Below, one piece after another: positions 2,349 to 18,303 of a stretch of DNA of 33,711 nt (positions are counted from its first letter, which is position 1; each line of letters starts with the position of its first letter). Position numbers and translations under genes: made by a program. The notes below the pieces were generated by a model that was not told the origin of the DNA, ran no database searches, and worked only from the letters and a program-made list of their open reading frames with translations. The stretch is taken from NCBI GenBank assembly GCA_024280635.1, contig JAJRPS010000007.1:1-33711 (forward strand), in the 5' to 3' direction. This DNA is from Bacteroidota bacterium. GTDB taxonomy: Bacteria > Bacteroidota > Bacteroidia > Flavobacteriales > Flavobacteriaceae.

Positions 2349-4154
2349 TTAGAAACAGTATTTGTTTTCGGTAGTTACCTTTTCAGCAATTTCATTTCTT
2401 AAATTTATAACATTTGGATGGTTGGTATATTTGGTAAACCTACGTAATCCCATTAACATCATTTTTTGTTCATCACCTTCTGCAAAGTATAAAATACCTT
2501 CTTTTGCTTTATCGCTTACAATATCAACTGCTTTGTATAAGTTTAATTGTGACATTGCAATTTGTGTTTTTTGTGAATCTTCACCAAAACGTTTGGCGTT
2601 TTTCTCAGTTCTTAAAATTACCGATTCAGCCATATAAATTTCAATTAAAATATCAGAAGCAGCTAATAATAATTGTTGATGACTTTCTAATTCAGGACCA
2701 AATTTTTGAATAGCAGCTCCTGCTACCATTAAAAATACTTTTTTTAATTTGGCAAGTATTGCTTTTTCTTCTGAAAATAATTCTGAATAATCAGGAATAT
2801 CAAAACTAGGTATTGCTGTCAACTCATCAGCAACTGCCATGGCAGGTGTTAACAAATCTACATGCCCTTTCATTGCTTTTTTAATTAACATTCCAACCGT
2901 TAACATTCGATTAATTTCATTGGTGCCTTCATAAATACGAGAAATACGAGCATCTCTCCAAGCGGATTCCATTGGAGTATCGGCAGAGAATCCCATTCCG
3001 CCAAAAATTTGAATTCCCTCATCTGTAGTTTTTTGAGCATCTTCAGAAACTCTAACTTTTAAGATAGAACATTCAATAGCATATTCTTCAACACCTTTTA
3101 ACTCTGCTTCTTGATGTGTATTTCCGTCTGCTTCACGCATAGCAATACGATCTTCAATGTTTTTTGAAGCCCTGTATGCTGCTGATTCATCTACATATGC
3201 CGCTGTTGACATTTCTGCTATTTTTGCTTTGATGGCTCCAAATTGAGCGATAGGTGTTTTAAATTGCTTGCGTTCATTGGCATATTTTACCGCTTCAGTA
3301 GTAACCCTACGTTGTGCATCTAAACAAGCTGCGGATAATTTTATACGTCCAATATTTAAAGCATTCATGGCAATTTTAAAACCTTTACCTCTTTCAGAAA
3401 GCATGTTTTCTATAGGCACTTTGGTGTCGCTAAAAAATACTTGACGGGTAGAGGAGGCGTGAATACCTAATTTGTGTTCTTCATCACCTAAAGTAATTCC
3501 GTTCGGATTGTTTTTATCATATTCTACAATGAAACTGGTAATGTATTTATCATCTTCAATACGCGCAAATACAATCATAAGGTTACAAAATCCTGCGTTA
3601 GAAATCCACATTTTTTGTCCAGAAATAGAATAGTATTTACCATCATCAGATAAAACGGCTTTTGTTTTACCAGAGTTAGCATCAGATCCTGCACCTGGTT
3701 CCGTTAAGCAATATGCACCAATCCATTCTCCAGAAGCTAATTTGGGAACGTATTTTTGTTTTTGGGCTTCAGTACCATATAATGTAATGGGCATGGTGCC
3801 AATTCCTGTATGTGCACCAAAAGCAGTACCTAAAGATCCTGTTGCACCTGATATATAATCACAAACTAACATGGTAGAAACAAAGCCCATTCCCATACCG
3901 CCATAAGCTTCAGGTACAGCAACACCTAATAAACCTAGATCTCCAATTTTTTTCATGAGTTCTTCGGTTAAAGCATAGTCTTTTTTCTCAAAACGTGCTT
4001 TATGTGGCCAAACCTCACGATCTACAAATTCAGTGACCATTGCTTTCATCATTTTCTGCTCTTCTGTAAAATCTTCAGGAGTAAAAATGTCTTCGCAATT
4101 GGTTTCTTTTACAATAAATTGTCCGCCTCTTAGTATTTCCTTATCGTTAGTCAT
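2349..4154 (-). CDS. fadE: Acyl-CoA dehydrogenase (beta-oxidation, FadE type)
   Basis: A 601-residue FAD-dependent acyl-CoA dehydrogenase, which introduces the trans-2 double bond in the first step of beta-oxidation. An N-terminal helical domain (about 30-150) is followed by the FAD/substrate signature AYCLTEPGAGSDANS, then SGQKMWISNAGFCNLMIVFARI in the beta domain, and the C-terminal helical domain with QIFGGMGFSADTPMESAWRD and RISRIYEGTNEINRM (about 400-415); the Glu of YEGT is the usual catalytic base. A further C-terminal region of about 150 residues makes it longer than the classic 380-residue enzymes and close in size to Bacillus subtilis FadE (YusJ). It is the last gene of the operon, 92 bases after the thiolase. 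The electron acceptor is presumably an electron-transfer flavoprotein encoded elsewhere. Confidence 0.93.
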   Translation of the reverse strand: MTNDKEILRGGQFIVKETNCEDIFTPEDFTEEQKMMKAMVTEFVDREVWPHKARFEKKDYALTEELMKKIGDLGLLGVAVPEAYGGMGMGFVSTMLVCDYISGATGSLGTAFGAHTGIGTMPITLYGTEAQKQKYVPKLASGEWIGAYCLTEPGAGSDANSGKTKAVLSDDGKYYSISGQKMWISNAGFCNLMIVFARIEDDKYITSFIVEYDKNNPNGITLGDEEHKLGIHASSTRQVFFSDTKVPIENMLSERGKGFKIAMNALNIGRIKLSAACLDAQRRVTTEAVKYANERKQFKTPIAQFGAIKAKIAEMSTAAYVDESAAYRASKNIEDRIAMREADGNTHQEAELKGVEEYAIECSILKVRVSEDAQKTTDEGIQIFGGMGFSADTPMESAWRDARISRIYEGTNEINRMLTVGMLIKKAMKGHVDLLTPAMAVADELTAIPSFDIPDYSELFSEEKAILAKLKKVFLMVAGAAIQKFGPELESHQQLLLAASDILIEIYMAESVILRTEKNAKRFGEDSQKTQIAMSQLNLYKAVDIVSDKAKEGILYFAEGDEQKMMLMGLRRFTKYTNHPNVINLRNEIAEKVTTENKYCF

Positions 4155-4246: not shown

Positions 4247-5437
4247 TTATTTTAAAAACTCAAAAATCCCGCAAGCTCCTTGTCCTGTACCTACACACAT
4301 GGTTACTGCACCGTATTTACCTTGCATGTTTTGCTTGCGCATTTCGTCAAACAATTGAACCGATAATTTAGCTCCTGTGCAACCTAAAGGATGTCCTAAA
4401 GCAATGGCGCCACCGTTTACGTTTATAATGTCTGGGTTTAAGTTTAACTCCCTAATTACCGCTAATGATTGTGAGGCAAAAGCTTCGTTTAATTCAATTA
4501 ATGCTAAATCTGATTGTTTTAAACCTGCTTGTTTTAATGCTTTTGGAATTGCTTTTACAGGTCCAATTCCCATAATACGAGGTTCAACACCGGCTGCTGC
4601 GTAATTAACCATACGAGCAATAGGTTCTAAGTTTAATTCCTTTACCATATCTTCACTCATCACCATTACAAAGGCTGCTCCATCACTCATTTGTGAAGAG
4701 TTACCAGCAGTGACACTACCCCCTTGAGCAAAAACTGCTCTTAATTTGTTTAAAACTTCAATGCTGGTTCCTTTACGAGGACCTTCATCTTTAGTTACGG
4801 TGTATGATTTTGTTGCTTTTTTACCGTTGGCATCTACATAAATTTGATTTACGGTAATGGGTACTATTTGATCTTGAAAACGATTTTCTGCTTGTGCTTT
4901 TAAAGCTTTCATATGCGATTGAAAAGCAAATTCATCTTGGTCTTTCCTTGATACATTAAATTGGTTTGCCACCGCTTCTGCGGTATTTCCCATTCCCCAA
5001 TAATAATCTTCATGACCAGATTTTGCTAAATCGTAGTTTAACTCTGGTTTGTTACCTGTCATAGGTACTGAGCTCATGCTTTCTGCTCCCCCTGCAATAA
5101 TACAGTCTGCCATACCACTTTGTATTTTAGCCGTTGCCATTGCAATAGTTTCTACTCCAGATGAGCAAAAACGATTTACGGTTACTCCAGGAACATCAAC
5201 GGTTTCTAATCCCATTAAAGAAATTAGACGTGCCATATTTAACCCTTGAGAACCTTCAGGCATTGCATTACCTACCATAACATCGTCAATTCTGGTTTTA
5301 TCTAAATTAGGTAACTCTTTCATCATGTATTGAATAGTCTCGGCCGCCAATTCGTCCGTTCTTTTAAAACGAAATAATCCTTTAGGAGCTTTGGTTACTG
5401 CGGTTCTGTATGCTTTTACTATATATGCTGTTTTCAT
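4247..5437 (-). CDS. fadA: Acetyl-CoA C-acyltransferase (3-ketoacyl-CoA thiolase)
   Basis: A 396-residue thiolase that splits 3-ketoacyl-CoA with free CoA, the last step of beta-oxidation. All catalytic residues are visible: the nucleophile Cys91 in VNRFCSSGVETIA, His349 in GGAIALGHPLGCTGA and Cys381 in MCVGTGQGACGIFEF. Length is standard and the protein is intact. It lies 76 bases after the fadN-type gene and 92 bases before the acyl-CoA dehydrogenase, all on the minus strand. These gaps are A/T-rich and hold no obvious promoter or hairpin, so one transcript is likely. The neighbouring genes make a catabolic role more likely than an acetoacetyl-CoA-forming biosynthetic one. Confidence 0.94.
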   Translation of the reverse strand: MKTAYIVKAYRTAVTKAPKGLFRFKRTDELAAETIQYMMKELPNLDKTRIDDVMVGNAMPEGSQGLNMARLISLMGLETVDVPGVTVNRFCSSGVETIAMATAKIQSGMADCIIAGGAESMSSVPMTGNKPELNYDLAKSGHEDYYWGMGNTAEAVANQFNVSRKDQDEFAFQSHMKALKAQAENRFQDQIVPITVNQIYVDANGKKATKSYTVTKDEGPRKGTSIEVLNKLRAVFAQGGSVTAGNSSQMSDGAAFVMVMSEDMVKELNLEPIARMVNYAAAGVEPRIMGIGPVKAIPKALKQAGLKQSDLALIELNEAFASQSLAVIRELNLNPDIINVNGGAIALGHPLGCTGAKLSVQLFDEMRKQNMQGKYGAVTMCVGTGQGACGIFEFLK

Positions 5438-5513: not shown

Positions 5514-7919
5514 CTAATTTCTTAAGGGTTTTCCTTTTTTAAGCATGTGCTCTAATCGCTCTAAGGTTTTTCGCTCAGTAGTTAGTGATAAAAACGCTTC
5601 TCTTTCAAGGTCTAATAAATATTGCTCTGTTACTAATGTAGGTTCGGATAGATCACCACCTGCCATTACGTAAGCAAGTTTGTTTGCAATTTTTTGATCG
5701 TGTTCAGAAATATAGTGACTCGCTTCCATAGCATCAGTACCTACTATAAACATTCCTAATGCTTGTTTCCCTAAAACTTTTACGTCTTTACGGCGCATGG
5801 GTTGTGTGTAACCGTGTTCTGCCATTATAATTGCTTGTGCTTTTGCGGTTGCTATTTGACGGTCTTTATTCACCACAATGATGTCTTTTCCTTTTTGTAA
5901 TAAGCCTAAATCAAAAGCTTCATAACCAGATGTTGATACTTTTGCCATACCAATGGTTAAGAAGTTTTCTTGTAATACATTCAATTCTATATCTCCTTTT
6001 TTAAAAGAATCAGAAGCTCTTAAAGCCATCTCTTTAGAACCACCACCACCAGGGATTAGGCCTACACCAAATTCTACTAGTCCCATATAGGTTTCAGCAG
6101 CGGCTACAACTTTATCAGCGTGTAAGGATAGTTCACAACCACCACCAAAAGTCATTCCGTGCGGTGCGGCTACGGTTGGTATTGATGAGTATCGCATACG
6201 CATCATCGTATCCTGAAAATACTTAATTGCCATATTCATTTCGTCATACTCTTGCTCAATTGCTAGCATAAATATCATTCCGATATTTGCGCCTACTGAG
6301 AAATTAGCTGCTTGATTACCAATAACCAAACCTCTAAAATTTTGTTCGGCTAGATCAATACCTTTATTAATACCTGCTAAAACATCACTACCAATGGAGT
6401 TCATTTTAGACTGGAATTCGACATTTAATATACCGTCACCAATATCTTCTATAACAACACCAGAATTTTTAAAGACTTCAGTTGTTTTTCTAATATTGTT
6501 TAAGATGATGAATGCATCTTGTCCAGGAACTTTAGTTTGTTTTTTTGAAGGAATATCATAAAAATAGGTAGCGCCTTCTTTTACAGTATAGAATGATGTG
6601 TTTTCTGAAGCTAACATATCGGTTACCCAATTGGCAGGTGTTAGGCCTTCAGTTTTCATCATTTCAATTCCTTTTGCTACACCAATTGCGTCCCAAATTT
6701 GAAATGGACCGTGTTCCCAACCGAAACCAGCTTTCATAGCATCGTCAATTTTATAAAGATCATCCGATATTTCAGGAATTCTATTGGAAACATAAGCGAA
6801 TAATGCCGCGAAACTTTTGCGATAAAAATCACCAGCTTTATCTTTTCCTTTTACTAATACTTTAAAACGATCAATTACATTGTCAATAGTTTTGGTCATT
6901 TCTAGTGTTGCAAACTTTGCTCGTTTTTTAGGACGGTATGCTAAGGTATTTAAGTCTAAAGATAAGATTTCTTTTTTACCATCTTCAGAAACCACTTTTT
7001 TATAAAAACCTTGTTTGGTTTTACTACCCAACCATTTATTTTCCATCATGGTATTGATGAATGCAGGGAGTTTAAATAAATCGTGATTTTCATCATTTGG
7101 ACAATTGTCATAAATACCATTGGCTACATGAACCAAAGTGTCTAGTCCTACTACATCAACGGTACGAAAAGTTGCCGATTTTGGACGGCCAATAACAGGA
7201 CCTGTTAATTTGTCAACTTCCTCAACGGTTAAATCCATTTCTTTTACCATATGAAACAAGCTCATAATGCTAAATATACCGATTCTATTCCCAATAAAAG
7301 CAGGAGTGTCTTTTGCGATAACGGATGTTTTTCCTAAGAATTTTTCTCCATAAGCATTCAAAAAATATAGCACTTCAGGAGTGGTATTGGGTCCAGGGAT
7401 AATTTCAAATAATTTTAAATATCGTGCAGGGTTAAAAAAGTGTGTTCCACAAAAATGCTTTTGGAAATCGTCACTACGCCCTTCACTCATGAATTGAATT
7501 GGAATCCCGGAGGTGTTTGAGGTAATTAAGGTACCTGGTTTACGATATTTCTCAATGTTTTCAAATACCGATTTTTTAATATCTAAGCGTTCCACAACTA
7601 CTTCAATAATCCAATCGGCAGTTGCAATTTGTGCAATATCGTCTGTAATGTTTCCTGTGGTAATTCTATTTGCAAATTTTTGATTGTAAATAGGGGAGGG
7701 TTTTGATTTTAAAGCATTTTTTAAATGATCATTAACCAAACGGTTACGTACTATTTTATCTTCTAGTGTTAAGCCTTTTGCTTTCTCTTTAGCGGTTAGC
7801 TCTCTTGGAGTGATGTCTAATAATAAGACTTCTACGCCAATATTGGCAAAGTGGCAAGCAATACCGCTTCCCATAATTCCAGAACCAATTATGGCTACTT
7901 TTTTAATGTGTCTTTGCAT
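5514..7919 (-). CDS. fadN: 3-hydroxyacyl-CoA dehydrogenase / enoyl-CoA hydratase fusion (FadN type)
   Basis: An 801-residue bifunctional enzyme for the two middle steps of beta-oxidation. The N-terminal dehydrogenase half opens with a Rossmann NAD-binding motif, KKVAIIGSGIMGSGIACHFA (glycines 12, 14, 17 and 19), and continues with the typical SNTSGIPI and GTHFFNPARY motifs (near 135 and 160). A second C-terminal dehydrogenase domain with GFGWEHGPFQIWDAIG is near 400. The enoyl-CoA hydratase domain is C-terminal (about 490-700) with GMTFGGGCELSLHADKVVAA and GLVEFGVGLIPGGGG, the latter carrying the catalytic Glu. This domain order, dehydrogenase first, is that of B. subtilis FadN and opposite to E. 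coli FadB. It starts only 4 bases after the marR stop codon, so the two are surely co-transcribed. Confidence 0.92.
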   Translation of the reverse strand: MQRHIKKVAIIGSGIMGSGIACHFANIGVEVLLLDITPRELTAKEKAKGLTLEDKIVRNRLVNDHLKNALKSKPSPIYNQKFANRITTGNITDDIAQIATADWIIEVVVERLDIKKSVFENIEKYRKPGTLITSNTSGIPIQFMSEGRSDDFQKHFCGTHFFNPARYLKLFEIIPGPNTTPEVLYFLNAYGEKFLGKTSVIAKDTPAFIGNRIGIFSIMSLFHMVKEMDLTVEEVDKLTGPVIGRPKSATFRTVDVVGLDTLVHVANGIYDNCPNDENHDLFKLPAFINTMMENKWLGSKTKQGFYKKVVSEDGKKEILSLDLNTLAYRPKKRAKFATLEMTKTIDNVIDRFKVLVKGKDKAGDFYRKSFAALFAYVSNRIPEISDDLYKIDDAMKAGFGWEHGPFQIWDAIGVAKGIEMMKTEGLTPANWVTDMLASENTSFYTVKEGATYFYDIPSKKQTKVPGQDAFIILNNIRKTTEVFKNSGVVIEDIGDGILNVEFQSKMNSIGSDVLAGINKGIDLAEQNFRGLVIGNQAANFSVGANIGMIFMLAIEQEYDEMNMAIKYFQDTMMRMRYSSIPTVAAPHGMTFGGGCELSLHADKVVAAAETYMGLVEFGVGLIPGGGGSKEMALRASDSFKKGDIELNVLQENFLTIGMAKVSTSGYEAFDLGLLQKGKDIIVVNKDRQIATAKAQAIIMAEHGYTQPMRRKDVKVLGKQALGMFIVGTDAMEASHYISEHDQKIANKLAYVMAGGDLSEPTLVTEQYLLDLEREAFLSLTTERKTLERLEHMLKKGKPLRN

Positions 7920-7923
7920 GGTA

Positions 7924-8361
7924 TTAGTTTTTATTAAATATTTTACGTTGATGTATTAAGTTGAGAATGGTTTCAGAAACTTCAAAAAAATGTGCAATTT
8001 TTTCAGCATCTAAATTTTTATTTACATTCTCATTAAATGAGATTACTTTTTCTTTGGATAAGTTACGCATTTCTATACCTAAATCAGTTAAAAAAATTAA
8101 AACACTACGCCCATCTTCTTGATGTTTTTCACGACGGATGAGTTTTTGTTCTTCCATTTTTTTTAAAGTACGTGATAAGCTAGTTGCTTCCATTCCCATT
8201 TTAGGGCCTAAAGTAGTAGAAGGGGTACCTTTTTTGTCAATGTTTAGAAGCGTAAAAGCTACAGCCATTGTAGCACCATATTTTCCAGCTTCTTCATTGT
8301 ATAGTTTAGCTACAGCTTGCCAAGTAGCTCTCAATGTATGGTCAATAGTATGTTTTTGCAT
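7924..8361 (-). CDS. MarR family transcriptional regulator of the beta-oxidation operon
   Basis: A 145-residue MarR-type winged-helix regulator, expected to act as a dimer. The DNA-binding part is about residues 40-105: a helix-turn-helix (LGPKMGMEATSLSRTLKKME, about 52-71) and a basic wing (KLIRREKHQEDGRSVLIFLT). Flanking helices at both ends form the dimer interface. It is the first gene of the operon; the fadN-type gene follows after 4 bases. A perfect 48-bp palindrome at 8385-8432 overlaps its promoter, so autorepression is the simplest model. Since the operon encodes beta-oxidation, an acyl-CoA or fatty acid is a reasonable guess for the ligand, by inference only. The same operator core recurs before the flavoprotein gene at 17353. 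Confidence 0.9.
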   Translation of the reverse strand: MQKHTIDHTLRATWQAVAKLYNEEAGKYGATMAVAFTLLNIDKKGTPSTTLGPKMGMEATSLSRTLKKMEEQKLIRREKHQEDGRSVLIFLTDLGIEMRNLSKEKVISFNENVNKNLDAEKIAHFFEVSETILNLIHQRKIFNKN

Positions 8362-8383: not shown

Positions 8384-8414
8384 CAAATATACAATAAAAT
8401 ACTATGCACGCATA
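8384..8414 (-). promoter_or_regulatory. Promoter of the marR-fad operon
   Basis: On the minus strand TATATTTG (8391 down to 8384) matches the Bacteroidota -7 box TAnnTTTG. Nineteen bases upstream lies TATG (8414 down to 8411) in the -33 position; it is also the first half of the palindrome core. Transcription would start near 8377, giving a leader of roughly 15 bases. Operator and promoter fully overlap, which favours repression. Confidence 0.65.
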
Positions 8415-8432
8415 GTATTTTATTGTATATTT
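8385..8432. promoter_or_regulatory. 48-bp perfect palindrome, probable MarR operator
   Basis: The left arm 8385-8407 and right arm 8410-8432 are exact reverse complements over 23 bases, separated by the dinucleotide AC. The core is TATGCACGCATA at 8403-8414. It begins 24 bases upstream of the marR start codon and covers the promoter. MarR dimers usually bind 15-20 bp palindromes, so the length could mean two dimers, or a cruciform/terminator-like structure in addition to an operator. Only the core recurs at 17305-17316. Confidence 0.75.
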
Positions 8433-17304: not shown

Positions 17305-17335
17305 TATGCACGCATAATAAAATTATGTATCTTTG
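17305..17335 (+). promoter_or_regulatory. Promoter and MarR-type operator before the flavoprotein gene
   Basis: The core TATGCACGCATA (17305-17316) is identical to the centre of the palindrome upstream of marR. TATCTTTG at 17328-17335 is a full TAnnTTTG match, and TATG of the core lies 19 bases before it in the -33 position, exactly as at the marR promoter. The symmetry is shorter here (about 8-bp imperfect arms around AC). Transcription would start near 17342, about 11 bases before the ATG. Confidence 0.65.
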
Positions 17336-17352
17336 GGTAAAATAATTACGTT

Positions 17353-18303
17353 ATGCAAAAACCTACATTACAAGAAATATTAAACATAAAACACCCCATT
17401 ATCATGGCACCCATGTTTTTGGTGTCTAATGTAGCAATGAGTATTGCTGGAATGAAAAAAGGTGTTGCAGCTTGTATTCCTGCTTTAAATTATAGAACTT
17501 TAGAGGAACTTCGAGCCGCTTGTAAACAATTAAAAGCTGCTAAAACGGATAATGGTGCGTTTGGTTTTAATTTAATAGTAAGCAAGTCAAATCCAAAATT
17601 TGAAGGACAATTAGAAGTGATTTGTGAGGAAGGAGCTGATTTTATTATCACCTCATTAGGAAGTCCAAAAACAACAATACTAGCGGCACATAAAGTAGGA
17701 ATTAAAGTTTTTTGTGATGTTGTAAACCTAGAACATGCTAAAAAAGTAGAGGTTTTAAAGGCCGATGCCTTAATAGCGGTAAACAATGAAGCAGGAGGGC
17801 ATAGGGGGAATATTGCACCTCAAAAATTAATACAAGAATTAAATGAAAATACCAGTTTACCTGTAATATCTGCAGGAGGTGTGGCTACAAAAAAAGACAT
17901 TGATAAAATGTTAAGCTATGGAGCTGTAGGGGTATCCGTAGGGAGTTTGTTTATTGCGAGTACCGAATCTAGTGTGTCTGAAGCATATAAGCAAGCTTGT
18001 GTGGATTATAATGCCGATGATATTGTAATGACAGAAAAAATATCAGGAACCCCATGTACGGTAATTAACACACCGTATGTGCAAAAAATTGGCACAAAAG
18101 AATCGTGGTTAGAAAACCTGCTAAATAAAAATAAATCTTTAAAAAAATGGGTGAAGATGATTCGGTTTTCAATAGGAATGAATGCCGTTACTAAAGCCGC
18201 AAATAGTGCAACATACAAAACGGTTTGGGTTGCAGGACCTAGTATTTCACATACCAAAGCTATTTTACCTGTTGCAAAAATTATAGATAAATTGATAAAA
18301 TAA
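17353..18303 (+). CDS. Nitronate monooxygenase / FabK-like FMN enzyme
   Basis: A 316-residue TIM-barrel flavoprotein of the nitronate monooxygenase (2-nitropropane dioxygenase) family, which also includes the enoyl-ACP reductase FabK. Motifs: HPIIMAPMFLVSNVAMSIAG at the N-terminus, FGFNLIVSKSNPKF, ITSLGSPKTTI, the family mark NNEAGGHRGN (about 144-153) where His is the proposed catalytic base, and the FMN phosphate site SAGGVATKKDIDKMLSYGAV with GVSVGSLFIASTES (about 175-205). Sequence alone cannot separate nitronate oxidation from enoyl-ACP reduction. The promoter carries the same operator core as the marR-fad operon, which suggests a lipid-related job, for example on unusual fatty acyl groups; this is inference. 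It converges with the ftsE-like gene downstream. Confidence 0.85.
   Translation: MQKPTLQEILNIKHPIIMAPMFLVSNVAMSIAGMKKGVAACIPALNYRTLEELRAACKQLKAAKTDNGAFGFNLIVSKSNPKFEGQLEVICEEGADFIITSLGSPKTTILAAHKVGIKVFCDVVNLEHAKKVEVLKADALIAVNNEAGGHRGNIAPQKLIQELNENTSLPVISAGGVATKKDIDKMLSYGAVGVSVGSLFIASTESSVSEAYKQACVDYNADDIVMTEKISGTPCTVINTPYVQKIGTKESWLENLLNKNKSLKKWVKMIRFSIGMNAVTKAANSATYKTVWVAGPSISHTKAILPVAKIIDKLIK

Follow-up and report, generated by a model that had tools for sequence, protein, structure and literature searches.

The DNA analysed here, a stretch of 33,711 nt from a member of the Flavobacteriaceae (the window), carries on its minus strand an operon that opens with a marR gene and continues with fadB, fadA and fadE, and on its plus strand a gene for an NMO/FabK-like flavoprotein. 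The coordinates of these genes and of the sites associated with them are given in Table 1. The MarR protein scores above the cut-off with both PF01047 and PF12802, which identifies it as a winged-helix regulator. The flavoprotein combines the NMO domain PF03060 with a catalytic histidine (His150, in AGGHRG) that is invariant in all 72 aligned sequences, and was on this basis assigned to the NMO/FabK family.

Table 1. Genes and operator features of the window.
Feature	Position	Strand	Basis or remark
fadE, acyl-CoA dehydrogenase	2349-4154	-	PF02771, PF02770, PF00441; NF058590 above cut-off
fadA, acetyl-CoA acyltransferase (thiolase)	4247-5437	-	PF00108, PF02803; TIGR01930 above cut-off
fadB/fadN-type 3-hydroxyacyl-CoA dehydrogenase and enoyl-CoA hydratase	5514-7919	-	PF02737, PF00725, PF00378; NF052272 at 1.2e-174, below its cut-off
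marR, MarR-family regulator, first gene of the operon	7924-8361	-	Pfam PF01047, 4.2e-9
TATATTTG, -7 box (TAnnTTTG) of the marR promoter	8384-8391	-	match to sigma-A consensus (PMC9723704)
Perfect inverted repeat with operator, before marR-fadBAE	8385-8432		23-nt arms (8385-8407 and 8410-8432), 100% complementary; 2-nt spacer
Operator core TATGC-AC-GCATA, marR side	8403-8414		core conserved here in relatives
Operator core TATGC-AC-GCATA before the NMO/FabK-like gene	17305-17316		exact core before 23 of 30 close orthologues
TATCTTTG, -7 box (TAnnTTTG) of the NMO promoter	17328-17335	+	pattern match
NMO/FabK-like FMN protein, probable lipid-pathway enzyme	17353-18303	+	PF03060, 8.3e-40

The two genes are linked by a 12-mer, TATGCACGCATA, whose sole exact copies within the window are the two cores of Table 1, at the positions that the original prediction had assigned to them. 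The copy before marR forms the centre of the inverted repeat. As marR lies on the minus strand, with its start at 8361, its promoter reads TATGCGTGCATA-N11-TATATTTG in the direction of the gene, and the NMO promoter, read gene-ward on the plus strand, is TATGCACGCATA-N11-TATCTTTG. The promoter letters thus bear out that at both sites TATG is followed at 19 bases by TAnnTTTG and that both sites terminate in TGTATnTTTGG. TAnnTTTG is the -7 consensus given for the sigma-A of F. psychrophilum (PMC9723704).

Conservation of the operator core across genomes

Statistics from the window are weak: allowing up to two mismatches, five matches were found versus 2.85 expected. The whole source genome, a draft of 80% completeness in which sites were located by pattern search, holds five cores versus three for the reversed control. 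Both values would agree with a mere coincidence, in which two AT-rich promoters happen to share a 12-mer. The significance of the motif therefore comes from the comparison between genomes. In 59 genomes we found 211 matches to TATGCRYGCATARTA, counting both strands and each full palindrome twice, versus one for the reversed control. The core with TAnnTTTG at 4-16 bases gave ∼65 matches in the same genomes versus one for the reversed pattern, and in the window's own genome this arrangement occurs only at the two window sites. Together with the conservation at orthologous positions before marR, etfB and the NMO gene over dozens of genera, which refutes coincidence, these counts leave the chance explanation with a negligible probability.

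A marR orthologue was found in 76 of 98 relatives, mostly at 44-76% identity. Counted, like all site numbers given here, without regard to relatedness, the core TATGCNNGCATA precedes marR in 68 of 72 relatives, and the exact core does so in 79 of 80 further named genomes, which were chosen by protein similarity, belong to the Flavobacteriaceae or similar groups and include F. psychrophilum and Kordia algicida. The four genes marR, fadB, fadA and fadE are kept together in all 70 testable named loci. Beyond the order, the exact core is present at 8 of 11 marR loci and with one mismatch at two more. The intergenic DNA flanking the conserved sites has diverged. Hence a conserved palindromic operator is present in the regulator's own promoter, as in an autoregulated MarR system.

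One of the three other cores in the window's own genome precedes etfBA, which encodes the electron carrier that accepts electrons from acyl-CoA dehydrogenase. When 30 etfB loci were picked by protein search and not by motif, 29 had the exact core; the sole exception was in G025, a genome without marR. We regard etfBA as the third predicted member of the regulon, stronger than the NMO gene and the best conserved of the distal members. The beta-oxidation core genes and their electron acceptor thus have the operator in common, as would a regulon for fatty-acid degradation.

Among close orthologues of the flavoprotein gene, defined by an identity of 58% or more, the exact core precedes 23 of 30, and two more carry it with one or two mismatches. 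Two of three named orthologues have it (Hyunsoonleella ulvae and Psychroserpens damuponensis, not Leeuwenhoekiella palythoae). The window's own genus has the exact NMO core in three of four species; in G001 the site is degenerate (TGTGCTAGCATA), and two other relatives in the genus lack a suitably spaced TAnnTTTG box. No core was found before any of nine NMO orthologues of more distant families or before any of 15 copies of the housekeeping NMO/FabK paralogue, a FabK-like protein kept in the same genomes and distinct from the flavoprotein. A divergent NMO form (∼32% identity) has the core in 5 of 11 cases, mostly in an intergenic region common to a 4HBT (acyl-CoA) thioesterase-like gene. At four loci (L148, L149, L150 and L154) the divergent NMO-like gene and the 4HBT thioesterase gene are transcribed divergently from one operator region.

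The site also follows the regulator: TATGCRYGCATARTA is present in 43 of 45 genomes with marR versus 2 of 14 without it (Fisher 7e-9, kinship uncorrected), and no TATGCRYGCATARTA site was found in G025 or in G026, both of which are without marR. G018 has a site and no marR was found in its assembly, which is 84% complete. Taken together, the sites are concentrated upstream of marR, fad and enoyl-reductase genes, and their presence varies in concert between species, as anticipated by the original prediction; neither a random scatter of the motif nor a lack of conservation before the orthologous flavoprotein gene, the two outcomes that would have spoken against it, was observed. The small regulon that had been envisaged reaches far beyond the window, but etfBA had been missed.

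Proposed regulation and promoter geometry

We propose TATGCRYGCATA, which is usually embedded in a longer palindrome, TAYTATGCRYGCATARTA, as the operator for the product of the window's marR gene (7924-8361). A dimer of this MarR protein would act locally on the marR-fadB-fadA-fadE operon that encodes it and at distant loci on etfBA and the NMO/FabK-like gene. In the simplest mode it would repress by occupying the DNA directly upstream of the TAnnTTTG element, and an acyl-CoA or fatty acid would serve as the signal for its release. The sequences themselves establish where the sites lie, how far they are conserved, which genes they precede and that most marR-less genomes have none. From these patterns we infer binding by MarR, repression and an acyl-CoA ligand, and we put the probability that marR-fadBAE, etfBA and the NMO gene stand under one MarR protein at about 0.9.

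These sites could instead be bound by some other, perhaps global, regulator, with marR merely one of its targets. This would account for G068, which keeps sites without a marR orthologue. The site is found almost always before marR, as autoregulation predicts, and is nearly absent from marR-less genomes, and we therefore consider this explanation very improbable. G068 is 99% complete and has three conserved sites (L134, L135 and L065); its sister G091 has marR. A recent loss or a replaced regulator may be the reason.

The original prediction read too much into the equal spacing at the two window sites: the exact 19 bases are not a conserved property. We measured the gap from the end of the core to the -7 box. 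It is 11 or 12 bases in 75 of 80 marR promoters and 7-12 bases in NMO promoters, whereas in etfB promoters it is mostly 20-24 bases, followed by a variant -7 box (such as TAACTTCG, TATCTTCG or TATATTTG), the position being read by eye wherever the scripted pattern failed to match. As the gap varies between promoters, the spacing that the two window sites have in common is typical but not obligatory. Relative to those at marR and NMO, the operator at etfB is displaced upstream from the promoter by roughly one helical turn, and simple occlusion is for this reason less obvious there, while activation is possible. MarR might accordingly activate, or both activate and repress, a reading also favored by sites upstream of genes for fatty-acid synthesis such as fabH. 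Most MarR proteins, however, are repressors of the operon that encodes them, and at marR the site overlaps with the -33 region, so that we find a departure from plain repression rather unlikely. At marR and NMO, the MarR protein is likely to repress by covering the -33 region.

The proposed system has parallels in well-studied bacteria. In B. subtilis the TetR-family regulator FadR controls a fadN-fadA-fadE-type operon, etfBA and accessory enzymes for unsaturated fatty acids, and its repression is released by acyl-CoA. The MarR protein would likewise be a single local regulator over an operon of this type, etfBA and accessory enzymes. The system described here differs in that the regulator is a MarR protein of Bacteroidota with an unrelated operator, its gene comes first in the fad operon, an NMO/FabK-like flavoprotein is a predicted member, and release by acyl-CoA is putative. 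With E. coli FadR, of the GntR family, it would share transcriptional control of fatty-acid degradation, and some of the sites found here also lie before synthesis genes (KASIII/FabH). Both the protein family and the operator are different. FabT of the Firmicutes is a MarR-family regulator of fatty-acid synthesis that uses acyl-ACP. The MarR fold, the connection to lipid metabolism and a palindromic operator are common to both, whereas the targets found here are mainly catabolic; the PDB sequence matches to the window's MarR protein included no entry named FabT.

Bacteroidota are major degraders of lipids and polymers in the sea, in soil and in fish disease. We found no earlier description of this regulon or motif in the open papers covered by our searches, where their control of fatty-acid use seems to be undescribed. 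The present analysis offers a concrete operator with which any genome can be scanned and names a candidate regulator. In F. psychrophilum the beta-oxidation genes are strongly induced by fish mucus and plasma, with no regulator named (PMC9723704).

Function of the flavoprotein

As the NMO gene stands under the operator common to fadBAE and etfBA, its product would belong to lipid catabolism and most likely assists, as an accessory enzyme, in the breakdown of fatty-acyl-CoA. Identity with the enoyl-ACP reductase FabK was rejected, since the curated equivalog model TIGR03151 gave 129.6 bits, far below its cut-off of 453.1. FabX is an NMO-family enzyme that handles acyl-ACP (PMC8626469). The flavoprotein resembles FabK and FabX in being of the FMN-binding NMO family, in having FabK enzymes as its nearest solved structures and in keeping the catalytic histidine. 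It differs from FabK in the equivalog score and in its apparent control together with beta-oxidation.

Known 2,4-dienoyl-CoA reductases are the flavoprotein FadH in E. coli and an SDR enzyme found in mitochondria and in Bacillus. Neither an OYE-type FadH nor a DECR orthologue was found in the window's own draft genome. Among 74 marR-bearing genomes, 23 have only DECR, 40 only the NMO-type enzyme, five both and six neither, which corresponds to a raw Fisher p of 3e-9 for mutual exclusion of the NMO-type and DECR1-type enzymes (kinship uncorrected). Here the divergent form was counted as NMO-type by choice, on the grounds of residues common to the close orthologues and absent from the paralogue; leaving it out gives a raw p of 3e-4. 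Over a marR+fadB tree of 72 genomes, the presence of DECR changes 12 times and that of the NMO-type enzyme 10 times. Of 7-8 independent pairs, ∼0 change the same way and 3.5-4.2 the opposite way (median p 0.125 in an underpowered sign test). Corrected for phylogeny, the exclusion is thus only a trend.

Since the two types tend to exclude each other, the flavoprotein may replace the DECR1-type enzyme, and this hypothesis is made reasonable by the invariant histidine and by the acyl-thioester enzymes, FabK and FabX, within the NMO family. We tentatively suggest that the flavoprotein could be a 2,4-dienoyl-CoA (or related enoyl-CoA) reductase that takes the place of the unrelated DECR1-type enzyme in many Flavobacteriales. 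If so, it would represent a third independent solution for the oxidation of unsaturated fatty acids, beside E. coli FadH and the SDR enzyme. The operator had also been expected before DECR genes in general, but only 3 of 30 carry it, and the complementarity in presence thus does not extend to shared regulation. In F. psychrophilum a gene behind the operator (L375:1532-2410) encodes a DECR1-type 2,4-dienoyl-CoA reductase (PDB 1w6u, E = 2e-84).

Alternatively, the NMO gene could be controlled by MarR and its product clear nitronates or reactive by-products of lipid use without performing a step of the breakdown, in line with the name of its Pfam family, nitronate monooxygenase. Sequence and solved structures, though, place the protein nearer to FabK, an enoyl-thioester reductase, than to the nitronate monooxygenases, the divergent form has its operator region in common with an acyl-CoA thioesterase-like gene in several species, and the NMO-type enzyme tends to occur where the 2,4-dienoyl-CoA reductase is absent. 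A detoxifying role consequently appears unlikely to us. Under the preferred reading, as an accessory enzyme of acyl-CoA catabolism, an uncharacterised flavoenzyme would be tied to the breakdown of lipids, and its reaction would be open to assay.

Further genes behind operator sites

The site census covers a subset of the matches, and the following gene classes are given among the matches listed. They comprise KASIII/FabH-like enzymes, 4HBT thioesterases, FadL, a TonB receptor, patatin, an acyl-ACP desaturase, a fatty-acid hydroxylase, stand-alone or second copies of fadB or fadE, and 2,4-dienoyl-CoA reductase. The set appears largely coherent, most of its members being lipid-related by annotation. 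Some seemingly unrelated genes (peptidases, an aminotransferase) also lie behind sites and may be chance or species-specific targets.

In at least six species (L156, L161, L166, L169, L189 and L386) an operator lies ∼160-170 bases before the gene for FabH (beta-ketoacyl-ACP synthase III), which hints at an influence of the regulator on the synthesis of fatty acids as well. A TonB-dependent receptor with a carboxypeptidase-like domain recurs behind the operator in many species (L133, L157, L162, L164, L167, L168, L170, L173, L180, L186, L377, L379 and L388) and is a candidate outer-membrane lipid importer. Finally, G000:C41:1859-1870 (L114:1859) is a strong palindrome with the same core and a TC centre, TTACTATGCTCGCATAGTAA, the sole such case among 313 distinct sites. 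It is located 42 bases before a gene whose 821-aa product carries a type IX secretion tail, which would fit a secreted lipid-related enzyme.
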